A DNA stretch of 56,763 nt from assembly GCF_000787835.1 (NCBI RefSeq), contig NZ_BBPP01000026.1, positions 62,769-119,531 on the forward strand, in the 5' to 3' direction. The notes below the pieces were generated by a model. It saw nothing but the letters and a program-made list of their open reading frames with translations, did not search any database and was not told the origin of the DNA. This DNA comes from Streptacidiphilus melanogenes (GTDB lineage Bacteria > Actinomycetota > Actinomycetes > Streptomycetales > Streptomycetaceae). The position numbers and the translations under genes are program-made. Below are positions 41,795 to 55,060 of the stretch, in pieces (the first letter of the stretch is position 1; every line of letters begins with the position of its first letter).

Positions 41795-42943
41795 ATGGAA
41801 AAGAAAGAGCACGGGACACTCCCGGTGCCGCCGCAGATATCCGACGCCACGCTGCGCGACTCCGCGCACATGGCAGGGGTGGAATTCGGTCCCAGGGACG
41901 CCGCGGCGATCGCCGACCTACTGGTGAAGACCGGCGTGGCGCTGGTCGAGGTGGGCATGGTCGCCGGCCCGGACTCGAAGGACGGCGACCTGGTCCTGGC
42001 CACCCACGAGGCCGTCGGCCCCGAGCGCAGCATGACGCTGGTGGTCGTGCGCGACCGCCAGCAGGTGGCGACGGCCCTCGACGAGGCCGAGCGGCTCGGC
42101 GTGCGGCACATCATGTACTCCATTCCCACGTCCGAGCAGCACGCCAAGCTGAAGCTCGGCTCGCCCAGCGCGAAGTTCCTCCAGGCGCTGGCCCGTTCGG
42201 CGATCGCGCAGGCCAAGGACCGCGGCTTCCACGTCACCTTCAGCGGCGAGGACGCGGCGCGCACCCCCGCGGAGCGCCTGGTCCCGTACGTCACCGCGGG
42301 CTTCGACGCCGGCGCCGACCGGTTCCGGCTGGCGGAGACCGTCGCCTACCTGTCGCCGTGGCAGATGCAGGACGTGATCGCGGACCTGACCGCGATCGAC
42401 GGCTCCGAGATCGAGATCCACTCGCACAACATGCTGGGCATGGCCGTCGCCAACTCCCTTGCCGCCGTGCGCGCCGGGGCGAAGTGGATCTCGGCGACCG
42501 TCGGCGGGATCGGCGAGCGCGGCGGTAACGCCCCGCTCGCCGAGCTGCTCACCTCGCTGCGCGTGATCCACGGCGACACCCGCTTCGACCTGAGCCACCT
42601 CACCGAGCTGTCGCGGCTCGCCCTCAAGGGCGCCGGCCTCGGCGAGGCGTTCCAGTCCGGCCCGACCACGCCGCACTCCTTCGCCTACGAGCTGCCGGGC
42701 CAGCTGAGCCACCCCGAGGCCTACGAGACGCTGCCCGCCGAGCTCGTCGGGAACTCCCGCGAGCTGCTGGTGCGCACCCGCCTGACGACCGCCCTGGTCA
42801 CGTGGGCGCTGGGCGACTCCGGCGTCTTCGTCGACGTCGAAGCCTTCACACCATGGCTGATCGAGCGTCAGGAGTCTTCGGGCGCTCCGCTGCTGGACCG
42901 CGACGCGATCCGCAAGGCCGCGATCGAGTTCCAGGCCGCCTGA
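41795..42943 (+). CDS. Homocitrate synthase / HMG-CoA-lyase-like aldolase (HMGL-like TIM barrel)
   Basis: A 382-residue enzyme of the HMGL-like family (2-isopropylmalate/homocitrate synthases, HMG-CoA lyase, 4-hydroxy-2-oxovalerate aldolase). D-A-T-L-R-D (17-22) holds the metal Asp and catalytic Arg, H-S-H-N (209-212) the two metal His, and G-G-I-G-E-R-G-G-N (237-245) the C-terminal signature. It could condense an acyl-CoA with a 2-oxo acid, or cleave such an adduct; the sequence does not decide. It opens the operon, 89 bases before the carrier protein. No aconitase- or isocitrate-dehydrogenase-like gene follows, unlike primary lysine synthesis through aminoadipate. Confidence 0.85.
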   Translation: MEKKEHGTLPVPPQISDATLRDSAHMAGVEFGPRDAAAIADLLVKTGVALVEVGMVAGPDSKDGDLVLATHEAVGPERSMTLVVVRDRQQVATALDEAERLGVRHIMYSIPTSEQHAKLKLGSPSAKFLQALARSAIAQAKDRGFHVTFSGEDAARTPAERLVPYVTAGFDAGADRFRLAETVAYLSPWQMQDVIADLTAIDGSEIEIHSHNMLGMAVANSLAAVRAGAKWISATVGGIGERGGNAPLAELLTSLRVIHGDTRFDLSHLTELSRLALKGAGLGEAFQSGPTTPHSFAYELPGQLSHPEAYETLPAELVGNSRELLVRTRLTTALVTWALGDSGVFVDVEAFTPWLIERQESSGAPLLDRDAIRKAAIEFQAA

Positions 42944-43032: not shown

Positions 43033-43218
43033 ATGTCCACCGCCACCCTGACCGGCGCCTGCCCCGAGTGCGAGACCGACCTGACCGTGCCGCCGATCGC
43101 CCAGGGCGAGACCTTCTCCTGCCCCGAGTGCATGCTCACGCTGCGTGTCGAGGAAATCCAGGACGGGCGGCTGACCCTCGAGATGGTCCAGGTCACGCTG
43201 CGCGACTGGGGCCAGTGA
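43033..43218 (+). CDS. Amino-group carrier protein, LysW-type, C-terminal Gln variant
   Basis: A 61-residue acidic carrier with a zinc ribbon: Cys10-x2-Cys13 and Cys30-x2-Cys33 in the C-P-E-C contexts typical of LysW. In LysW proteins the last residue is Glu (consensus D/E-W-G-E), whose side-chain carboxylate is joined to the alpha-amino group of the substrate to protect it and to present it to LysX/Z/Y enzymes. Here the end is R-D-W-G-Q: codon CAG at 43213-43215, then TGA. The loading site is therefore an amide as encoded. GGAG at 43021-43024 lies 8 bases before the ATG. The ligase gene starts one base after the stop. Confidence 0.92.
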   Translation: MSTATLTGACPECETDLTVPPIAQGETFSCPECMLTLRVEEIQDGRLTLEMVQVTLRDWGQ

Positions 43219-43219
43219 G

Positions 43220-44071
43220 ATGACCAAGAACGTCGCCATCGTCGCGGACCGGATCAGCTGGGAGGAGCGCCGGCTGATCGAGGCCGCCCCCGAGCTCGGA
43301 CTGCATGTCGAGTGGGTCAACGACGAGTCCCTGTGCCTCGGCGCGCCCGGCGCGCCGTCGGTGCAGGACTTCGACGCGCTGCTGGTGCGCAGCCGCAGCT
43401 ACACGCGCGGCGGCCTGGTCGCCACGCTCGCCGAGGCCGCCGGGATCCCCGTCCTCAACAGCGCGCGGGCCATCAACGCCTGTGAGAACAAGGCCGTCCT
43501 GCGGTCGGTGCTGAGCGCCGCGGAGATCCCCGTGCCGGACTTCCGGCTGGTGCTGTCCCGCCGCGACTTCGAGAAGGCGCTGGACGAGCTCGGCGTGCCG
43601 GTGGTGCTCAAGCCGATCTTCGGCGGCATGGGCAAGCGGGTCACCCTGATCCGCCACACCGACACCGCCCACTCCGTCTACGACTACGTCGAGGACCTCG
43701 GGCACGCCTTCGAGCAGGCCTGCCTGGTCGAGCCGTACCTCTCCGGCGGCTCGTCGGTGCGCTGCCTCGTGGTGGGCCGCGACATCGTGGCCGCCGCGGA
43801 GTTCGCCAGCGCCGGCGCCGACTGGCGCAGCAACGCGGCGCTCGGCAACCGCAGCACCACCCTCGCCTACGATCCCGACGTCGTGAAGATCGTCGACGCC
43901 GTGGTCTCCGAACTCGGCGCCGGGATCTACGGCGTCGACCTCTTCCGCACCGACGACGGCTACGTCGTCAACGAGGTCAACCACGCCCCTGCCTTCCGCG
44001 GGGTGGCCTCGGTGACCGGCGCGGACATCCCCAACGCCGTCGGCTCGTTCGTCCAGGAGCTGCTCTCATGA
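43220..44071 (+). CDS. LysX-like ATP-grasp ligase (amino-group carrier loading)
   Basis: A 283-residue RimK/LysX-family ATP-grasp ligase. In LysX systems it attaches the substrate amino group to the carrier's C-terminal Glu. ATP-grasp features include V-L-K-P-I-F-G-G-M-G-K-R-V, V-E-P-Y-L and the metal-binding E-V-N-H-A-P-A-F-R-G near the C-terminus, similar to the E-V-N-H segment of LysX. It is one base from the carrier gene and overlaps the next gene by 4 bases. Because RimK homologues can also extend alpha-carboxyl ends, it could join the substrate to the Gln alpha-carboxylate instead. Confidence 0.9.
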   Translation: MTKNVAIVADRISWEERRLIEAAPELGLHVEWVNDESLCLGAPGAPSVQDFDALLVRSRSYTRGGLVATLAEAAGIPVLNSARAINACENKAVLRSVLSAAEIPVPDFRLVLSRRDFEKALDELGVPVVLKPIFGGMGKRVTLIRHTDTAHSVYDYVEDLGHAFEQACLVEPYLSGGSSVRCLVVGRDIVAAAEFASAGADWRSNAALGNRSTTLAYDPDVVKIVDAVVSELGAGIYGVDLFRTDDGYVVNEVNHAPAFRGVASVTGADIPNAVGSFVQELLS

Positions 44072-45138
44072 TCCGCGCGGGTGTCGTCGGAGCCTCCGGG
44101 CTCGCCGGCGGCGAACTGATCAGGCTGATCACTCAGCACCCCGAGATGGAACTGACCTTCCTCGGCGGTTCCTCCAACATCGGCCGGCGTCCGGCCGAGC
44201 TGCACGCCAACCTGCGGTTCGACCTCGGGCTGACCGTGCAACCCGTCACCGAGGAGGTCGCCGGCCTGGTCGACGTCCTCTTCCTGGCCACGCCGGCGCC
44301 GGTCTCGGCGCAGCTCGCCGGGCAGCTGGCGGACAAGGTCCCGGCGATCGTCGACCTCAGCGGTGCGTTCCGCATCCGCACCCCGGAGCTGCACGACCGC
44401 TGGTACCCCAAGGTCCAGCGCCGCGCCGAACTGGCGGACCGCTTCGTCTACGGCGTCCCGGAGCTGATCCGGGACCAGCTGGTGGGCGCGCCGCTGATCT
44501 CGCTGCCGGGCTGCTACGCCACCGCGCTGACGCTGGGCCTGGCCCCCCTCACCCTCGGCCTCGGGCTGGACCTGAAGACGGTGGTGGTGGACGGCAAGAG
44601 CGGCTCCAGCGGCGGCGGCCTGCAGCTGCGCACCGCGGACCTGCACCCGTTCCGCAACGGCGCCATCGCCCCCTACGCCCCGACGGGGCACCGGCACGCG
44701 GCCGAGGTCGGCGACTTCCTGGCCCGCGCGAAGTCGGACAGCGGCACATCGGGCAGCATCGCCTCGCTCAGCATGTCCGCCTACGGCGTCTCGCACGTGC
44801 GCGGCCTGCTCACCAGCTCCTACATCTTCACCGACGCGGAGGTGGACCAGCGCGAGCTGCAGCGCGCGTACACGCGCTTCTACAAGGGCAGCCGCTTCGT
44901 GCGGGTGCGCCGCCACAACGAGACGCTGATCCCGGTGCCCGATCCGCAGGTCGTGCTCGGCTCCAACTTCTGCGACGTGACCGTCCTGCACGACCCCGAG
45001 GGCGGACGGATCGTCGTCCTGTCCGCGCTCGACAACCTCGTCAAGGGCGCCGCCGGACAGGCCGTGCAGGTCGCCAACATCCGGTTCGGCCTGCCGGAGG
45101 AGACGGGGCTGACCATGCAGCCGGTGATGCCCGCATGA
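44068..45138 (+). CDS. ArgC/LysY-like acyl-phosphate reductase
   Basis: A 356-residue NADPH-dependent semialdehyde dehydrogenase of the ArgC/LysY family, reducing a carrier-bound acyl phosphate to an aldehyde. The Rossmann motif G-V-V-G-A-S-G-L-A-G-G-E lies at the N-terminus, the nucleophile Cys149 in L-P-G-C-Y-A-T, and a conserved His in T-G-H-R-H (208/210). Start and stop overlap neighbours as ATGA, giving strict coupling with the ligase and kinase. Confidence 0.92.
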   Translation: MIRAGVVGASGLAGGELIRLITQHPEMELTFLGGSSNIGRRPAELHANLRFDLGLTVQPVTEEVAGLVDVLFLATPAPVSAQLAGQLADKVPAIVDLSGAFRIRTPELHDRWYPKVQRRAELADRFVYGVPELIRDQLVGAPLISLPGCYATALTLGLAPLTLGLGLDLKTVVVDGKSGSSGGGLQLRTADLHPFRNGAIAPYAPTGHRHAAEVGDFLARAKSDSGTSGSIASLSMSAYGVSHVRGLLTSSYIFTDAEVDQRELQRAYTRFYKGSRFVRVRRHNETLIPVPDPQVVLGSNFCDVTVLHDPEGGRIVVLSALDNLVKGAAGQAVQVANIRFGLPEETGLTMQPVMPA

Positions 45139-45941
45139 GCAGGACCCAGGACACCGACAGGACGCCGACCGTCGTCAAGCTCGGCGGCAGCTGCCTGGAC
45201 GACCTGGCCGGCACCTGGTGGGACGACCTGGCCCGCTACGGGCTGCTGCGGCCACTGGTCCTCGTGCACGGCTGGTCCAAGCCGCTCAAGCGGCTGAACC
45301 CGCGCTACAGCGAGCCGTCGGCGATCCTGCGTGACCGCTACGGCAACCAGAGCCGCTGGACCACCCCCGAGGTCATCGAGGACATCAAGACCGTCAGCGC
45401 CACGCTGGCCGAGGACGTCCTCGGCCGGCTGGGCCGCCGCGGCATCACGGCGGAGTGGCTGCTCGGCAGCGACGGGCTGGTCCAGGCCGGCGAGGGCGAA
45501 CGCTGGTGGTGGCGGGAGAAGCAGCTGGTCGAGCTGGAGAACCTGGTCGGCCCGATCACCGGCGTGGACCCCTCCGCGCTGAAGAACCTGCAGCCCGGCC
45601 ACGCCTACCTGGTCACCCCGCTGGCCCGCAACGCGGCCGGGCAGGAGGTCAACAACGACGCGGACCGCGCAGCGGCCGCGATCGCCGGTGCCGTCGGCGC
45701 CACCGACCTGGTCCTGGTCACCGACGTCCCGCACCTGCTGGTCGACGGAGAGCCGGTGGACCGGATCAGCGCCGAGGCAGCGGCCGCCTTCCGCGACAAG
45801 GGCGCCACCGGCGGCATGCGCAAGAAGCTGCGGGCCGCCGGAGAGGCGCTGGAGCGGGGCGTCGCGCGGGTCGTCATCGGCAGCGCCCCCGTCACGGACC
45901 TGCTGGCCGCCCGCACCGGCACCGTCATCACCCGAACCTGA
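45135..45941 (+). CDS. LysZ-like amino-acid kinase
   Basis: A 268-residue member of the acetylglutamate-kinase/LysZ family that phosphorylates the distal carboxylate of the carrier-bound amino acid. V-V-K-L-G-G-S (Lys15) forms the ATP site, N-N-D-A-D-R the substrate region, and G-A-T-G-G-M-R-K-K the C-terminal signature. It overlaps the reductase gene (ATGA). Together with the carrier, ligase and reductase this completes the W-X-Y-Z set. Confidence 0.9.
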   Translation: MSRTQDTDRTPTVVKLGGSCLDDLAGTWWDDLARYGLLRPLVLVHGWSKPLKRLNPRYSEPSAILRDRYGNQSRWTTPEVIEDIKTVSATLAEDVLGRLGRRGITAEWLLGSDGLVQAGEGERWWWREKQLVELENLVGPITGVDPSALKNLQPGHAYLVTPLARNAAGQEVNNDADRAAAAIAGAVGATDLVLVTDVPHLLVDGEPVDRISAEAAAAFRDKGATGGMRKKLRAAGEALERGVARVVIGSAPVTDLLAARTGTVITRT

Positions 45942-45952
45942 GGAGCGAGCAC

Positions 45953-46516
45953 GTGGCGAAATCCCGTGTGCTAGTCGTCAACAACGGAACTCTGTCCCTG
46001 CCGCAGCTCCGCAAGCGCTTCGAGGACATGGGCTCGGAGACCGACGCGGTCGACGCGGCCTCCGTGCCCACGAAGCTGGACGGCCGCTACCAGGCGATCG
46101 CGCTGAGCGGCACCAAGGTGCGGGCCTACGACCAGGACTTCTACAAGCCGCTCGTCGACCTGGTGATGAACTCCGACGTCCCGGTCTTCGCGATCTGCGG
46201 CGGCATGCAGCTGATCGCGGTCGCGGCCGGCGGCCGCCTGGCCGAGGGGCAGAGCCGCGTCGGCGGCTACGAGGTGCAGGTCGACAAGACCGAACCGATC
46301 TTCGAGTTCGTGAAGCCGACCGTGACCGTCTTCCACCGGCACACCCTCTACCTGCAGGAGGCCCCACAGGGCTTCCGCTCGATCGGCCGCTCCGAGCACG
46401 CGCCCGTGGAGTTCCTGCGCTCCGACGACGGCCGCATCTTCGGCGCCCAGGCCCACCTGGAGTTCCGCGAGGACGGCCGGGAGATCCTGCGCGGCTTCGC
46501 GCAGCTCTACCGGTGA
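45953..46516 (+). CDS. Class I glutamine amidotransferase-like protein
   Basis: A 187-residue stand-alone class I GATase fold. The nucleophile elbow is A-I-C-G-G-M-Q with Cys82, and the dyad is H-L-E (His168, Glu170), so the catalytic triad is complete. The family includes gamma-glutamyl hydrolases and stand-alone amidase subunits. In this operon it may hydrolyse the gamma-glutamyl/amide link at the carrier C-terminus, either deamidating the terminal Gln or releasing product, since no LysK peptidase is present; supplying ammonia to a partner is the alternative. It starts at GTG with AGGAG overlapping the previous stop. Confidence 0.85.
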   Translation: MAKSRVLVVNNGTLSLPQLRKRFEDMGSETDAVDAASVPTKLDGRYQAIALSGTKVRAYDQDFYKPLVDLVMNSDVPVFAICGGMQLIAVAAGGRLAEGQSRVGGYEVQVDKTEPIFEFVKPTVTVFHRHTLYLQEAPQGFRSIGRSEHAPVEFLRSDDGRIFGAQAHLEFREDGREILRGFAQLYR

Positions 46517-46561: not shown

Positions 46562-47680
46562 ATGAGTGAGCAAGGCTCGAACGGGCCCGCCTTCACCGTC
46601 CACCTGGGCGGCAGCGGCGGCCACATCAAGGGCTGGGTGGTCGTCGACTCGCTCGTCGACGGCCTGGCGATGGGCGGCACCCGGATGACCGCCGGGGTCA
46701 CCGAGGAGGAGGTCGCCGGGCTCGCCCGCGACATGACCGAGAAGTTCACCCTCGCGGGCCTGCGCATCGGCGGCGCGAAGGCCGGCATCGTCGCGGACGG
46801 CGGCGACCGGGAGGAGACGTTCCGCACCTTCGGAAGGACCGTCAAGCCGCTGCTGCACGGCGGCATCCACCTCGGCATCGACATGGGCGTCACCCCGGCC
46901 GACCGGGCCGTCTTCTTCGACGAGGCGAAGTACGATCCGCGCTACCGTCTGGGCGCCCCCGACATGCCGATCGACTGGCGCACCTACTACGAACCGCTGA
47001 TCGACTGCACCGGCCACGGCGTCGGCGTCGCCGCGCTCACCGCCCTGGAGGCGAGCGGCCGCACCGAACCGGCCCGGATCGTGATCCAGGGCTTCGGCGC
47101 CGTCGGCCGCGCCGTCGCCCGCTTCCTGGAGGAGCGCGGGCACGTCGTCGTCGGCATCGCCGACGTGCAGGGCACCATCAGCGCGGACCGGCTCCCCGTC
47201 GCAGACCTGGTCGCGATCACCGACGAGTTCGGGCGGATCGACCACGCGCGGCTGCCCCAGCACGTCACCGTGAACCGCGAGCCGGACGCCTGGCTGGACC
47301 TGGACGCCGACCTGCTGGTGCTCGCCGCGCAGAAGTACGCGCTCAACGCCGAGAACGCCCACCGGCTGCGGGCCCGCATGGTGATCGAGGGCGCCAACAT
47401 CGCCTCCAGCGACGAGGCCCGACAGAAGGTGGCGGCCGCCGGGGTGACCCTGGTCCCCGGCGTCATCGCCAACATCGGCGGCGCCGGGTCCGCGGCCCTG
47501 GCCGTGACCCGGGTGGTCCCCTTCGACCTGTCGTCGGACGCGCGCAAGAGCTGGGTCTTCGACTGGGTCGCCGACCGGGTCCGCACCAACACCCGGGACC
47601 TGCTGGAGATCGCGGCGTCCCGCGCCGGAGACCCGCTGCCCGAACTGCTCGCCACGCGCCGCGCGGAGCTGCACCGATGA
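46562..47680 (+). CDS. Glu/Leu/Phe/Val dehydrogenase-like amino-acid dehydrogenase
   Basis: A 372-residue enzyme of the amino-acid dehydrogenase superfamily that interconverts a 2-oxo acid plus ammonia and an L-amino acid with NAD(P). The paired lysines are Lys61 (M-T-E-K) and Lys73 (G-G-A-K-A-G-I), the probable catalytic Asp is Asp107 in G-I-D-M-G, and the nucleotide-binding loop is G-F-G-A-V-G. Its length is shorter than hexameric GDH (~450) and close to valine/leucine dehydrogenases. AAGGA precedes the ATG by 8 bases; TTG 46556 is an alternative. It likely makes the amino acid that is loaded on the carrier. Confidence 0.85.
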   Translation: MSEQGSNGPAFTVHLGGSGGHIKGWVVVDSLVDGLAMGGTRMTAGVTEEEVAGLARDMTEKFTLAGLRIGGAKAGIVADGGDREETFRTFGRTVKPLLHGGIHLGIDMGVTPADRAVFFDEAKYDPRYRLGAPDMPIDWRTYYEPLIDCTGHGVGVAALTALEASGRTEPARIVIQGFGAVGRAVARFLEERGHVVVGIADVQGTISADRLPVADLVAITDEFGRIDHARLPQHVTVNREPDAWLDLDADLLVLAAQKYALNAENAHRLRARMVIEGANIASSDEARQKVAAAGVTLVPGVIANIGGAGSAALAVTRVVPFDLSSDARKSWVFDWVADRVRTNTRDLLEIAASRAGDPLPELLATRRAELHR

Positions 47681-49311
47681 CCGCCGACCCGTCGGCCGCC
47701 GACCGGCTGGCCGAGTACCGCAGGCGCGGCTGGTGGCGGGACGAGACCTTCCTGGACGACCTGCGCCGCCAGGCCGTGGAGCGTCCACGCAAGCTCGCCA
47801 TCGCCGGACGCCGGCTCGCCGAGGCCCGCACCGACACCCTCGACTACGCCGAACTGTCACGGCTGACCGACCGGTTCGCCGGGGCGCTGCTGGAACTGGG
47901 CGTGGAGCGCGGCGACGTCGTCGCCGTCCAGCTGCCCAACCGGTGGGAGATGGTCCCGCTGATGTTCGCCTGCATGGCGGCCGGCGCGGTCATCTGCCCC
48001 ATCGCGCCGGTCTGCCAGGAGGAGGAGCTGCGGCACCGGCTGGCGCTCACCGAGGCCCGGGTGTGCATCACCCTGCCGGAGTGGGAGGGCTACCCGCTGG
48101 CCGAGACGCTCAACGCGCTGCGCTCCGAGCTGCCGCTGGAACACGTGGTGGTGCTCGACGGCCACGCCCCCGCGGGCGCGGTGGACTTCCACGACCACTT
48201 CGTCGCCACGCACTGGGAGAACCGGCGCATGGGCGACCTGGACGGGCGTCAGCTGCGGCCCGACGAGCCGTTCGTGGTGCTGTTCACCTCCGGCACCACC
48301 GGGTTCTCCAAGGGCGTGGTGCACAGCCAGAACACCGTCCACTCCGGCGTGCGTGGCTACGTGGACACCTTCCTGCTGCACGGCGGGCTGGTCGCCGCGG
48401 TCACCACCCCGCTGGTGCACTACTCCGGCTTCGGCCAGGGCGTGCTCGCCGGGGTGATGCTCGGCGGCACGATCGCCTTCCAGGACGGCCCCGACCACGC
48501 GGGCCTGCTGGACCTGGTCGAGCGCTACGGCGCGACGCTGATCTACGGGCCGCCGCCCACCCTGTCCGGGGTGGCCGCCGCGCAGCAGGCCGACCCGCAC
48601 GACGTGTCGAGCCTGCGCCACACCGTCACCGGCGCGGCGCCGGTGCTCCAGGAGCTGGTGGACGAGCTGCGCGACACCTTCGGCGCACGCACGTACTCGG
48701 TGTGGGGCATGTCCGAGTTCGGTCCGGTCACCATCAGCCGGCTGGACTACAACCAGGACTGGGCGGCGCACAGCCACGGGCGGCCGATCGACTCCATGGA
48801 GATCCGCATCGACCAGTGCGCGGACCCGACCAAGCGCGCGCCGGTCGGCCGGCTGCGGGTGCGTGGGGCGTCGCAGGCGCTCGGCTACTACAAGCAGCAG
48901 GACGTCTTCGACGCGGAGTTGATGGGCGACGGGTGGTTCGACACCGGCGACGTCGCCCGTGAGGACGGGCGCGGCGGGATCCGTGTCCTGGGCCGCGCCA
49001 AGGACGCCATCATGCGGGACGGCATCGTGCTGCCGATGGCCGAACTGGAGTCGGTCATCGCCGCCCACCCCAAGGTGACCGAGGCCGCGATCGTCGGTCC
49101 AACCGGGCACATCGACGACCCGATCCTCGCCGTCGTCGTGCCCAGCGGCGGCACCCCGCCGAGCCTGACCGAGCTCCGCGCCCACCTCCGGGACGCGGGC
49201 CAGGACGCCCGGTTCCTCCCCGAGCGCCTGGAGATCACCTCGGCCCTGCCGAAAACCCTCACCGGCAAGGTCCGCAAGGTCGAACTGCGCAAGCGGTACG
49301 CCACGGACTGA
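47677..49311 (+). CDS. AMP-forming acyl-CoA synthetase/ligase
   Basis: A 544-residue ANL-superfamily enzyme activating a carboxylate as acyl-AMP. The P-loop is F-T-S-G-T-T-G-F-S-K-G, the A5 motif S-V-W-G-M-S-E-F-G, the A7/A8 region G-W-F-D-T-G-D-V-A, and the catalytic Lys is in L-T-G-K-V-R-K-V at the C-terminus. No carrier or condensation domain is attached, so it forms a CoA ester or donates to a separate amine. It overlaps the dehydrogenase by ATGA. It resembles cyclohexanecarboxylate/fatty-acid CoA ligases. Substrate unknown. Confidence 0.88.
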   Translation: MTADPSAADRLAEYRRRGWWRDETFLDDLRRQAVERPRKLAIAGRRLAEARTDTLDYAELSRLTDRFAGALLELGVERGDVVAVQLPNRWEMVPLMFACMAAGAVICPIAPVCQEEELRHRLALTEARVCITLPEWEGYPLAETLNALRSELPLEHVVVLDGHAPAGAVDFHDHFVATHWENRRMGDLDGRQLRPDEPFVVLFTSGTTGFSKGVVHSQNTVHSGVRGYVDTFLLHGGLVAAVTTPLVHYSGFGQGVLAGVMLGGTIAFQDGPDHAGLLDLVERYGATLIYGPPPTLSGVAAAQQADPHDVSSLRHTVTGAAPVLQELVDELRDTFGARTYSVWGMSEFGPVTISRLDYNQDWAAHSHGRPIDSMEIRIDQCADPTKRAPVGRLRVRGASQALGYYKQQDVFDAELMGDGWFDTGDVAREDGRGGIRVLGRAKDAIMRDGIVLPMAELESVIAAHPKVTEAAIVGPTGHIDDPILAVVVPSGGTPPSLTELRAHLRDAGQDARFLPERLEITSALPKTLTGKVRKVELRKRYATD

Positions 49312-49705: not shown

Positions 49706-51010
49706 ATGTCCGAAGCCGTGCCGGTGACCAAGTCGGCGACGTTGGCCGCCGATGAGGCGCTGGAGCGCCGGAGGCTCGCCGGGGAGCAGGTGCTGTCCCT
49801 GGCGAGCGGTGAGATCGGTCTGCCCGTGCTGCCCGCGTTGCGGTTGCGGCTCGCCGAGGCGGCGGGGCGCAACGCGTACGGTCCCGTGGCCGGCAGTGCG
49901 GAGCTGCGCTCCGCGGCTGCCGGGTACTGGGGGCGGCGCGACCTGCCCACCGACCCTGAGCTGGTGCTGTGCGGGCCGGGGAGCAAGCCGCTGCTCTTCG
50001 CCCTGATGCTGGCCGTCGGCGGCGACGTCGTCGTGCCGGTGCCGAGCTGGGTGAGCTACGCCGCCCAGGCGCGGCTGGCCGGGGCCCGGCCCATCCACGT
50101 GCCCACCGTGCCGGGCCAGGGCGGCGTGCCGGACCCGGACGCGCTGCGGGTGGCCGTGGCCGCCGCGCGGGCGGCAGGGCGGAACCCGCGGTGCGTCGTG
50201 GTGACCCTGCCCGACAACCCCACGGGAACCATCGCCGAGCCGGACACCCTGCGGCGCCTGGGCGAGGCGGTCAGGGAGCTGGACCTGGTCGTCGTCTCCG
50301 ACGAGATCTACTGCGACCTCGTCTTCGACGACGAAGGACCCGCCGTCTCCCCGGCCGTGTTCGCCCCCGAGCGCACCGTGGTGACGACGGGGCTGACCAA
50401 GAACCTGGGCCTGGGCGGCTGGCGGATGGGCGTGGCCCGGCTGCCCGAGGGGCGCCTCGGGCGCGACCTGCGGGACCGCCTGGAGGCCGTCGCCAGTCAG
50501 ACCTGGTCGACGACCGCCGCGCCGGTCCAGGAAGCCGCCGCCTACGCCTTCGGGGAGCCGTCCGAGGTGGTCGCCTACGTCGCCGGGGCCCGGCGGCTGC
50601 ACGAGACGGTGGTGCGCGCGGTGGCCCGGCACTTCGCCGCCGTCGGCGCCGAGCTGACGCCGGTGCGCGCCACCAGCTACCTGTACCCGGACTTCGAGCC
50701 GCTGCGGGAGCAGCTGCGCGAGATCCACGGAGTCTCCTCGGGCGGGGAGTTGGCCGCCCTGCTCGCGGAGCGCCACGGCGTGGGCGTGCTGCCCGGCAGC
50801 GCCTTCGGCGAAGCCGACCGTTCGCTGCGGATCCGCGTGGCCACCAGTCGGCTGTACGGCGAGACCGACGCGCAGCGCACGGCCTCCCTGGCCGCCGTCG
50901 CCCCGCTCGAACTCCCTTGGATCAAGGCCTCTCTGGACCGCATCGCCGACGTGCTCGGCGACCTGGTCCGGTCCCCCGCCGCCCGGTCGGCGACCGCCGG
51001 GCGTTCCTGA
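49706..51010 (+). CDS. PLP-dependent aminotransferase, fold type I (class I/II)
   Basis: A 434-residue aspartate-aminotransferase-like enzyme. N-P-T-G (171-174), S-D-E-I-Y (Asp199, Tyr202), the PLP Lys232 in G-L-T-K-N-L-G-L-G-G-W-R and a C-terminal R-I-R-V carboxylate-binding Arg are all present. LysJ-type enzymes of lysine synthesis are class III, so this is not a simple LysJ replacement, though it could transaminate the aldehyde or a 2-oxo acid. GGAG at 49696-49699 is 6 bases before the ATG. Confidence 0.88.
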   Translation: MSEAVPVTKSATLAADEALERRRLAGEQVLSLASGEIGLPVLPALRLRLAEAAGRNAYGPVAGSAELRSAAAGYWGRRDLPTDPELVLCGPGSKPLLFALMLAVGGDVVVPVPSWVSYAAQARLAGARPIHVPTVPGQGGVPDPDALRVAVAAARAAGRNPRCVVVTLPDNPTGTIAEPDTLRRLGEAVRELDLVVVSDEIYCDLVFDDEGPAVSPAVFAPERTVVTTGLTKNLGLGGWRMGVARLPEGRLGRDLRDRLEAVASQTWSTTAAPVQEAAAYAFGEPSEVVAYVAGARRLHETVVRAVARHFAAVGAELTPVRATSYLYPDFEPLREQLREIHGVSSGGELAALLAERHGVGVLPGSAFGEADRSLRIRVATSRLYGETDAQRTASLAAVAPLELPWIKASLDRIADVLGDLVRSPAARSATAGRS

Positions 51011-51084: not shown

Positions 51085-51987
51085 ATGTCCGTCACGACCG
51101 AGACCGTCAGCGAGTACACGTACCGGGGTGAGCGCTACGTCAGCCGCGGCATCGCGGCGCACGGCGAGCCTCAGACCCTGCACCGGGTGGCCCAGAGCCG
51201 GCTGCGTGCCGCCCTCCGCGGGGAGGGCGGCCCGGAGGCGCTCGCCGCCCTGCTCGACGCGGCCGACACCATCACGGTGACCGCCGGCGATCCCGAACTC
51301 ACGGCTCTGCCGCCGCTGTTGCCGACGGACGGCGGCCACTCGCTGGTCAGCGGCTTCCTCGGCACCCACAAGTCCAAGGCGGACGCCATCGTCCAGCACG
51401 GCGACCAGCCGCCGCTGCCCAAGTGGTACTTCAAGGGCCTCGGCTCCTGGCTGCGCACACCGGGTCAGCCGCTGGTCGCCCCCGCCGAGCCGGTCATCGT
51501 GATCGAGGAGGCGGAGGTCGTCCTGGTCTTCGTCAACGACGAGAACGGCGAGCCCCACTACGCGGGCTACACCTTCGGCAACGACTTCTGCGACATCGGC
51601 CTGCACCGGATCGACCCCGGCTACACACCCTCGGGCAAGCTCTGCGACACGGCCGTCTCGCCCCACCTCTTCCTCGGCGAGCCGCCGCGCGCGGCCACCG
51701 GTCAGGTCACCATCGAGCGCGACGGGCGGCCTGCCTGGAAGGGCACGTTCGACTGCGGCGCCGACGCGCTGTGGTTCCGCACCTCGGACCTGGTCGACCG
51801 GCTCTTCTCCTTCCCGGCGCTGCGCCGCCCCGGGCTCGTCAACTACGTGCTGACCGGCGCGGACCTCAGCAGCTTCCACGACGGCTTCCAGATCGCCGAC
51901 GGCGACCACGTCGTCATCGACGTGGCCAGCCACGGCGTGGTCCTGTCGAACACGATCCGGTTCGGCGGGTCGACGGCGTCCTTCTGA
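51085..51987 (+). CDS. Fumarylacetoacetate-hydrolase-family enzyme (GguC/AraD-like)
   Basis: A 300-residue protein. The FAH fold core Y-F-K-G-L-G-S-W-L, I-E-E-A-E-V-V-L-V (metal Glu residues) and G-Y-T-F-G-N-D-F-C-D-I (metal Asp) are recognisable. The family includes hydrolases, decarboxylases and 2-oxo-acid dehydratases acting through a divalent metal enolate. It starts 74 bases after the aminotransferase with GGAGG at 51071-51075, and ends in a strong terminator. Its likely role is dehydration or decarboxylation of an intermediate; not proven. Confidence 0.75.
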   Translation: MSVTTETVSEYTYRGERYVSRGIAAHGEPQTLHRVAQSRLRAALRGEGGPEALAALLDAADTITVTAGDPELTALPPLLPTDGGHSLVSGFLGTHKSKADAIVQHGDQPPLPKWYFKGLGSWLRTPGQPLVAPAEPVIVIEEAEVVLVFVNDENGEPHYAGYTFGNDFCDIGLHRIDPGYTPSGKLCDTAVSPHLFLGEPPRAATGQVTIERDGRPAWKGTFDCGADALWFRTSDLVDRLFSFPALRRPGLVNYVLTGADLSSFHDGFQIADGDHVVIDVASHGVVLSNTIRFGGSTASF

Positions 51988-52152: not shown

Positions 52153-52896
52153 ATGGACATTTTCCGTCTACCCCGGCTCGGCCTCGTCGTTCCTCCGGAA
52201 AACCCCATAGCGGAACCCGAGTTCAACCGCCTTCTCGGCGCCGAGATCAATGTTTACAGCGCGCGTTTCCCGGTGACCCCGGAATTCAACAGGGAAACCA
52301 TGGAAATGTACAACCAGGTGCTCCCGGAAACGCTGGCCGATTTCGGCCGGATGAATCTGGACGCGGCCGTGATCGCGTGCAACGCCTCGCACTACCTGCT
52401 CGACCCGGACGGCGACCGGGCCTTCCTCGCGGAGCTGTCGCAGCGTTTCGGCTTTCCCGTGCAGTCCTCGACCCGGGCGATCCTCGACCTGTGCGAGGCG
52501 CTCGGGGTGACCCGCATGTCGCTCGTCTCCCCCTACGACGCGTGGCTGACCGACCTGTCCCGCGGCTACTGGGAGAAGGCAGGGATCGCGGTCGACCACG
52601 TCGTGCTCGCCCCGGGCGTGCCCGGCGTCACCGCGGCGGACGACCGCTTCAACCCCTACCTGGTGACCACCGAGACGCTGCTGACGCGCCTCGCCCAGGT
52701 CGAACTCGCCGACGACGCCGTTGTGTTGTTCACCGGCACGGGCATGGGCACGCTGCCCGCGCTGACCGAGCTGGCCCGGGACGGCGGCCGGCGCACCCTG
52801 CTCACCTCCAACCTCGCCTCGGCCTGGTGGACGCGCCGCACCGTCGGCGCCGACGGTGCCGCCCCGCACCCGCTGCTGCGCCGCCTCAAGCGCTGA
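52153..52896 (+). CDS. Asp/Glu racemase-superfamily enzyme (maleate isomerase / arylmalonate decarboxylase-like)
   Basis: A 247-residue protein of the Asp/Glu/hydantoin racemase superfamily. The first catalytic Cys is present at Cys76 (I-A-C-N-A-S-H). The second Cys, usually in a C-T-N/C-T-G context near residue 194, is replaced: the segment reads V-L-F-T-G-T-G-M-G. One-Cys members tend not to be racemases; decarboxylation or isomerisation of a dicarboxylate is more likely. No ribosome site is present, fitting a leaderless transcript. Confidence 0.75.
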   Translation: MDIFRLPRLGLVVPPENPIAEPEFNRLLGAEINVYSARFPVTPEFNRETMEMYNQVLPETLADFGRMNLDAAVIACNASHYLLDPDGDRAFLAELSQRFGFPVQSSTRAILDLCEALGVTRMSLVSPYDAWLTDLSRGYWEKAGIAVDHVVLAPGVPGVTAADDRFNPYLVTTETLLTRLAQVELADDAVVLFTGTGMGTLPALTELARDGGRRTLLTSNLASAWWTRRTVGADGAAPHPLLRRLKR

Positions 52897-53821: not shown

Positions 53822-55060
53822 ATGAGGAGCACCGAGCCGTCCGTCGGCACCGCCACCGCACCCCCCGTCCCCGATACGACGCCCACCGCGAACACGAAGC
53901 TGCCGATGGCGAGCCTGCTCGCGCTGGCCGTCGCGGTGTTCATCACCAGCCTCACCGAGACCCTGCCCGCCGGGCTGCTGCCCGCGATGAGCGCCAGCCT
54001 GCACACGAGCCAGTCCGCCGCCGGGCAGACCGTGACCATCTACGCGCTGGGGACGGTGCTCACCACCATCCCGCTGTCCTCGGCGACCGCGGGCTGGCGC
54101 CGTCGGCGCCTGCTACTGACCGCGATGGCCGGCTTCGCCGTCGCCAACACCGTCACCGCGCTGTCGACGAACTACCCCGCCACCCTCGTCGCCCGGTTCG
54201 TCGCCGGCATCGCCGCCGGTTTGGCGTGGGCCCTGCTGGCCGGATACGCCCGCCGGATGGTCGCGCCCCAGCAGGAGGGCCGCGCCATCGCGATCGCCAT
54301 GGCCGGCATCCCTGTCGCGCTCTCTCTCGGCGTCCCGGCCGGCACCTTCCTGGGCCAGGTGGCGTCCTGGCAGTGGGCGTTCGGCGCCATGACGCTGCTC
54401 ACCGTCGTCCTGCTGGTCTGGATCGCGGCCGTCGTCCCCGACTACCCGGGGCAGCAGGCGGGCGGAAAGATCCCCGTGCGCCGGACCCTGCTGGTGCCGG
54501 GCGTGGCGCCAGTGCTGTTCGTGATGCTGGTCTTCGTGCTGGCCCACACCATCCTGTACGCCTACGTCGCCACCTTCCTGCAGCACATCGGCATGGGCGG
54601 CCAGACGGACGCGGCGCTGCTGGTCTTCGGCGTGGCCTGCCTCGTCAGCATCTGGGTGGTCGGCGCCTTCATCGCGGCGCACCTGCGCACGCTGACGGTC
54701 GCCTGCACACTGCTGGTGGGCGCCGCCGTCGCGCTCCTGGGCGCCTTCTCGGGCACTCACGCCCTGGTCTACGTCGCGGCCGCGCTGTGGGGCCTCGGCT
54801 GGGGCGGCGTGCCGACCCTGCTGCAGACCGCCGCCGGCCAGGCCGGCGGCGAGGCGGCCGACGCGGCGCAGGCGATCCTGGTGGTCCTGTGGAACGTGGC
54901 CATGGCCGGTGGCGGCATCGCGGGCGGCATCGTCCTCGGGGCCGTCGGGGTCTCCCCGTTCCCCTGGATCGTGCTGGTCCTGCTCGTCCCGGTGCTCATG
55001 GTCGTGCTGGCCGCCCGCGCTCACGGGTTCCCCGGCAGGCGTGCGGCCGAGGCGAGTTGA
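53822..55060 (+). CDS. MFS efflux transporter (DHA1/AraJ type)
   Basis: A 412-residue major-facilitator pump with a ~25-residue cytoplasmic lead and about twelve helices. It resembles chloramphenicol/sugar efflux proteins of the DHA1 group (motifs S-L-T-E-T-L-P-A-G-L-L-P and the loop G-W-R-R-R-R). No ribosome site is present; it starts right after a MerR-type promoter. It probably exports the cluster product or detoxifies an intermediate. Confidence 0.88.
   Translation: MRSTEPSVGTATAPPVPDTTPTANTKLPMASLLALAVAVFITSLTETLPAGLLPAMSASLHTSQSAAGQTVTIYALGTVLTTIPLSSATAGWRRRRLLLTAMAGFAVANTVTALSTNYPATLVARFVAGIAAGLAWALLAGYARRMVAPQQEGRAIAIAMAGIPVALSLGVPAGTFLGQVASWQWAFGAMTLLTVVLLVWIAAVVPDYPGQQAGGKIPVRRTLLVPGVAPVLFVMLVFVLAHTILYAYVATFLQHIGMGGQTDAALLVFGVACLVSIWVVGAFIAAHLRTLTVACTLLVGAAVALLGAFSGTHALVYVAAALWGLGWGGVPTLLQTAAGQAGGEAADAAQAILVVLWNVAMAGGGIAGGIVLGAVGVSPFPWIVLVLLVPVLMVVLAARAHGFPGRRAAEAS

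Follow-up and report, generated by a model that had tools for sequence, protein, structure and literature searches.

In published accounts, amino-group carriers act by means of a C-terminal Glu, and the question raised by this locus is how a carrier that is encoded with a C-terminal Gln could be loaded. In classical loading the gamma-carboxylate of the C-terminal Glu is activated (PMC9303977), which agrees with the first-pass annotation that the terminal Glu side chain bears the substrate in known carriers; this carboxylate is absent from Gln. The gene was identified in the window, by which the whole stretch of 56,763 nucleotides analysed here is meant, with the following features.

43033..43218, + strand: LysW-like amino-group carrier of 61 aa with the end RDWGQ (open reading frame, profile match and alignment)
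43060..43131, + strand: zinc-ribbon Cys codons C10, C13, C30 and C33, with no exception among the 28 aligned carriers
43213..43215, + strand: terminal Gln codon CAG (codon reading), with the TGA stop at 43216-43218

The end R-D-W-G-Q, with CAG directly before TGA, had been reported at first pass and was borne out when the codons were rechecked. Translation gave a short protein whose zinc ribbon has two CPEC pairs and whose C-terminus is VTLRDWGQ, where a LysW-type carrier would have EDWGE, and it was the sole match found by a search of the source genome. The carrier lies under the curated cut-offs, reaching 41 of 75 bits for NCBIfam and 24.6 of 27 bits for Pfam; the NCBIfam LysW cut-off was passed by no match in 394 genomes of the class, EDWGE carriers included. 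With this model 19 matches were revealed in 18 of the 394 genomes, 16 of which end EDWGE or EDFGE, and three belong to the Gln-type clade described below.

Within the same GTDB family, 34 of 297 genomes had a carrier match at E <= 0.01. Thirty loci were examined, five weak matches being left out of the end reading; 28 close ones (67-100% identity, the window's included) end LRDWGQ, and the remaining two, both weak matches, end EDWGE. A wide scan covered 84,980 species with one genome per species, using a query profile from which DWGQ had been removed, hence blind to the C-terminus, and two peptide patterns which both fall inside the zinc ribbon. The best 80 of 100 relatives were kept and gave 78 loci, with Gln at the end of 71, spanning 17 named genera such as Streptomyces, Kribbella, Nocardia, Actinoplanes, Glycomyces and Brevibacterium. 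The other seven were a locus of Amycolatopsis anabasis (L132, PDWGE) and six acidobacterial zinc-ribbon matches with different tails (L134-L139), which are short proteins with CPECETDL and long acidic tails and no DWGE.

For the count of distinct loci, 121 loci with a LysX match were used, all selected by LysX in the stretch. Three without a carrier nearby (L037, L169 and L174) and 16 with an identical LysX were dropped, and the 102 left were split by LysX identity to that of the window into a clade (>36.5%, 87 loci) and classical loci (the rest, 15). The clade carriers end RDWGQ in 82 loci, RDWGE in four and PDWGE in one, and the classical carriers end in Glu in 15/15 and in Gln in 0/15. The search for Gln C-termini proposed by the first-pass annotation did recover the Gln end, while the impression of an isolated oddity was corrected, Gln being the rule in the clade. 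In five Streptomyces loci (L066, L068, L076, L081 and L086) a second carrier copy, also ending RDWGQ, was observed on the opposite strand some kb from the main operon.

The last codon was CAG in all 82 distinct Gln-ending loci, while the preceding Gly codon occurred in all four forms and the Arg codon in four forms. Since CAG is invariant and the neighbouring Gly and Arg codons vary, it is the protein end that has been held constant, even though CAG and GAG are only one base apart. The Gln end is genuine and not a sequencing error; the C/G error at 43213 feared at first is ruled out by the CAG common to these loci. That the gene is erroneously read, decayed or encodes a carrier no longer loaded is hardly credible: the absent Glu is the only thing that speaks for it, the operon is intact and the Gln end real and conserved, the annotation too had found the gene not obviously decayed, and a strain whose cluster is of this family lost the product when lysW and rimK were deleted together (PMC12022981). 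The annotation had known of no Gln-ending amino-group carrier, and no paper on one was found in the open-licence literature on amino-group carriers.

The genes around the carrier are as follows.

41795..42943, + strand: homocitrate/isopropylmalate-synthase-like enzyme (HMGL-like, 382 aa), shared by 86 of 87 clade loci
43220..44071, + strand: LysX/RimK-type ATP-grasp ligase (283 aa)
44068..45138, + strand: LysY/ArgC-type reductase (356 aa)
45135..45941, + strand: LysZ/ArgB-type kinase (268 aa)
45953..46516, + strand: class-I GATase, peptidase C26-like (187 aa, GTG start), proposed to hydrolyse the gamma-amide of the carrier
46196..46198, + strand: GATase nucleophile Cys82, in a triad with His168 (46454-46456) and Glu170 (46460-46462)
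46562..47680, + strand: Glu/Leu/Phe/Val-type dehydrogenase (372 aa), in 81 of 87 clade loci
47677..49311, + strand: AMP-binding (acyl-CoA ligase-like) enzyme (544 aa), in 81 of 87 clade loci
49706..51010, + strand: class I/II aminotransferase (434 aa), with a homologue in 73 of 87 stretches
51085..51987, + strand: protein of weak likeness to AraD1/GguC (300 aa), with a homologue in 74 of 87 stretches
52153..52896, + strand: arylmalonate decarboxylase-like protein that may belong to the cluster, with a homologue in 54 of 87 stretches
53822..55060, + strand: MFS transporter that may belong to the cluster, with an MFS homologue in 63 of 87 stretches, the family being common in genomes

The synthase-like gene, carrier, LysX, LysY, LysZ, GATase, dehydrogenase and AMP-binding genes follow each other in this order on one strand. 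The GATase is the last gene of the operon in two loci (L122 and L127), so the part from synthase to GATase looks like a self-contained carrier cycle. For the product of 51085..51987 no Pfam match was obtained, and its homologue in the same place of another locus (L160) is named fumarylacetoacetate hydrolase. The carrier shares its size, the four-Cys zinc ribbon, the acidic-aromatic DWG end and the adjoining LysX, LysY and LysZ genes with LysW, ArgW and the Streptomyces carrier Vzb22 (vazabitide A), but it differs from them in ending with Gln instead of Glu and in having a GATase instead of an M20 enzyme in the operon.

The operon context had been called otherwise normal, which does not hold for release: the operon lacks the M20 release gene seen in classical loci and has a class-I GATase in its place. 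In classical loci the M20 gene, of the type of LysK, which we take to be an M20 enzyme, was present in 17 of 18 (ten of the 18 supplied the query set and match by construction, and seven others, with two near-copy pairs, match independently), and class-I GATase in 0 of 18. In clade loci M20 was found in 0 of 87, as sought within the stretches around the loci, eight of which have <5 kb on one side, and GATase in 86 of 87, the sole exception being a 9.6-kb contig ending in LysY. A PF01546 search of 17 genomes placed M20 at <=10 kb from 11 of 12 classical carriers (17 kb in the other, G064) and none within 20 kb of six clade carriers, in both cases among the matches listed. M20 genes were found elsewhere in all 17 genomes, and such an M20 could act. 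The Cys-His-Glu triad of the GATase is intact in 86 of 86, and the predicted model (pLDDT 93.7) had GMP synthetase GATases as its best Foldseek matches; the profile search also matched gamma-glutamyl peptidase 1, and the homologues in three loci (L159-L161) were annotated as 'gamma-glutamyl-gamma-aminobutyrate hydrolase family protein'. Fold and triad are shared with class-I GATases such as GMP synthetase subunit A and with peptidase C26 and gamma-glutamyl peptidase 1. Unlike the class-I GATases, the window enzyme has the loop SGTKxRA for SGGPxSV, and an invariant Arg129 where GMP synthetase has Ser.

The operon matches a cluster family that genetics has tied to iso-maleimycin. BGC23a of Streptomyces sp. 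QL37 has genes for isopropylmalate synthase, LysW, RimK and an AMP ligase (PMC12022981), and the same gene set was found in the window operon, QL37 being compared by its published description. Neither iso-maleimycin nor lugdunomycin was made once lysW and rimK had been deleted together, while BGC23 brought into S. coelicolor M1152 bearing the angucycline cluster gave both (PMC12022981), so whatever is needed would sit in BGC23 or in the host. Similar clusters were named in SM11, S. filamentosus and S. shenzhenensis (PMC12022981), and these correspond to three of our loci (L098, L106 and L118), each with the full operon and the carrier end RDWGQ. Since lysW and rimK are needed for product and the loci of the named similar clusters have the full operon with RDWGQ, such a carrier very probably works, although the QL37 cluster itself was compared by description. 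The main text of PMC12022981 has no 'glutamin', 'Gln', 'C-terminal', 'deamid' or 'amidotransferase', and it discusses neither the last residue of the carrier nor a GATase, both of which were seen in the window operon. Set against the passages of literature consulted, the cluster family is already known, and the new elements are the Gln end, the members that end in Glu and the exchange of M20 for GATase.

Class-I GATases cut the gamma-amide of Gln. The explanation that we prefer, and to which we give about an even chance, is that the carrier serves an iso-maleimycin-type cluster, that its Gln is a masked Glu, and that the GATase has replaced LysK as a putative gamma-amide hydrolase. We infer the substrate of the GATase, the deamidation, the loading on Glu and the chain chemistry as follows. 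The Gln end made by the ribosome would be a masked Glu, and the GATase, acting on the new carrier, would remove NH3 and turn Gln into Glu. LysX would then join the amine of the substrate to the carrier gamma-carboxylate, LysZ and LysY would reduce the far carboxyl of the loaded substrate, and the homocitrate-synthase-like enzyme may lengthen the chain. Finally the GATase would act on the loaded carrier in the role of LysK, cutting the isopeptide bond and freeing the product. A possible route would lead from carrier-bound Glu to the semialdehyde (LysZ, LysY) and, with an acetyl unit added by the synthase-like enzyme, to a C7 amino diacid, which would be freed by the GATase and could undergo deamination, acid activation and ring closure; such a route would fit the C7 skeleton of maleimycin.

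Gamma-amide hydrolysis would explain why, among the loci counted, Gln occurs only in the GATase-bearing clade, and also why Glu-ending members keep the GATase and have no M20 in the operon. The idea that the GATase is a deamidase only was rejected: all five Glu-ending clade loci retain the enzyme, which suggests that it does more than deamidate. The preferred explanation leaves the preference for Gln over Glu without a reason; it may be guessed that Gln protects the carrier from early or wrong loading. Direct exchange of the carrier amide NH2 for the substrate amine by the GATase, a transamidation with no prior hydrolysis, is very improbable. A Cys acyl-enzyme would be open to attack by an amine, and Gln would then be the required leaving form, but a LysX with ATP-grasp motifs is present in every clade locus counted (the loci were chosen by LysX), and Glu-ending members could not be loaded in this way.

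The Glu-ending members were found in several places. In Rhodococcus fascians A21d2 and R. erythropolis MGMM8 a plasmid search revealed the same gene set with the carrier end LRDWGE, encoded by GAG and followed by TAG; further RDWGE loci came from genome searches, one being a Rhodococcus-like copy (L196) and the other from the same family as Amycolatopsis anabasis (L193). On both Rhodococcus plasmids (L159 and L161) two luciferase-type monooxygenase genes adjoin the Glu-ending operon. The virulence locus att of R. fascians was considered as the same cluster and rejected, the argH-argG-argJ gene set, which from its description we take to be att, lying elsewhere on the plasmid. The PDWGE carrier of A. 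anabasis lies in a related but distinct cluster (L132:6387-18110) with radical SAM aminomutase-like, synthase-like, aminotransferase and GATase (36% identical) genes, together with decarboxylase-like and epimerase-like genes named by eye.

Trees were built from LysX+LysY+LysZ (64 of the 102 rows, Gln-ending rows >86% identical to a retained row being thinned out) and from GATase and synthase (48 rows each). Three changes between Glu and Gln were needed on each of the three trees, of which two (LysX+LysY+LysZ), one (GATase) and three (synthase) were forced by starred branches. When rooted on the classical loci, the Glu-ending L132 fell outside all other clade rows, the Glu-ending L193 deep among Gln rows, and the Glu-ending Rhodococcus loci on a branch of their own; L132 and L133 are long branches of unsure placement, and the direction of each Glu/Gln change is one that we infer. 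The enzyme exchange seems to have come before the change from Glu to Gln, since L132, with Glu and GATase and without M20, branches first. Gln probably arose once, and the link between Gln and GATase would then be a single event and not many.

A compensating change in LysZ was sought at column 137, which is Leu in 80 and Arg in one of the Gln-ending loci and Arg in all four Glu-ending loci besides L132. It was set aside as one of 21 similar columns in LysX, LysY and LysZ, these being sites where Glu-ending loci other than L132 bear letters rare in Gln-ending loci, and as the Glu-ending L132 has Leu. In the LysZ of the window (45135-45941) residue 137 is the Leu that is Arg in Rhodococcus, L193 and the Gln-ending L133, possibly by chance. 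The Arg of the LysX motif NxxRG was likewise rejected as a mark of the Gln end, being present in 11 of 15 classical loci but missing from all 87 clade loci, with either end, and from the other 4 of 15 classical loci. In four classical EDWGE loci (L164-L167) the LysX has NTHLG in place of NxARG.

The independence of this LysX motif from the carrier end, the membership of LysX in the RimK family and the occurrence of the same operon with Glu and Gln ends would all suit a LysX that loads the alpha-carboxylate of the last residue in RimK fashion, with either side chain allowed. A near-invariant Gln is not expected from such indifference, and the GATase would be left only with release of a bond outside the range of its family; we consider this loading unlikely, with a rather small chance of being right. 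A slightly smaller chance is given to the amide being the cargo, in which LysX and GATase, as a pair like carbamoyl-phosphate synthetase, would amidate the terminal Glu, the Gln codon would give the first amide, and the nitrogen may reach the maleimide imide. The nearest GATase relatives donate ammonia to synthetases, members with either end retain the GATase, the NxxRG Arg is lost throughout the clade, and the product is an imide; if anything, the predicted fold, nearest to ammonia-donating GATases which act on free Gln, would fit this alternative as well as hydrolysis. But LysZ, LysY and the synthase-like gene point to a carrier loaded with a carbon substrate, we know of no precedent for attaching such a substrate to an amide, the SGGPxSV loop is altered, and the NxxRG Arg is missing from some classical LysX too.

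The carrier may be compared with the bacterial tag Pup, whose Gln form ends with GGQ where the carrier has WGQ. Pup, like the carrier, is a small protein ending in Gln or Glu by lineage, and Dop both deamidates Pup and cleaves its isopeptide bond (PMC8223512). Common to Pup/Dop/PafA and to our preferred explanation of masked Glu are an isopeptide bond on the gamma-carboxylate and one enzyme proposed for deamidation and release, but the proteins and enzymes are unrelated, a metabolite carrier stands against a degradation tag, and the dual activity of the GATase is putative. A host enzyme, e.g. Dop, or slow spontaneous deamidation might make Glu from Gln, with the operon GATase only releasing the product; this is improbable, though it deserves some weight. 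All 19 genomes examined had a Dop match above the family cut-off, so an attempt to rule it out by absence failed, and Pup likewise ends in Gln in many actinobacteria (PMC8223512). Dop being in every genome examined, its presence discriminates nothing, and the carrier and Pup are unrelated proteins differing at the end (WGQ vs GGQ). No Dop homologue is encoded in the operon, where the enzyme is a GATase, and the Dop matches of the source genome lie on another contig (C94) than the window (C82).

The Gln-encoding clade and the exchange of the release enzyme suggest that a metabolite carrier, like Pup, came to have its sole functional group masked and unmasked. An enzyme of the cluster comes from a family which cuts the type of bond whose cleavage would unmask the carrier, so that enzyme and substrate are defined for study in vitro, and the GATase gene, so far unassigned, has a proposed role in the iso-maleimycin/lugdunomycin pathway. 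If instead the amide were the cargo, this would be a protein carrying an amide nitrogen and not an amino acid.
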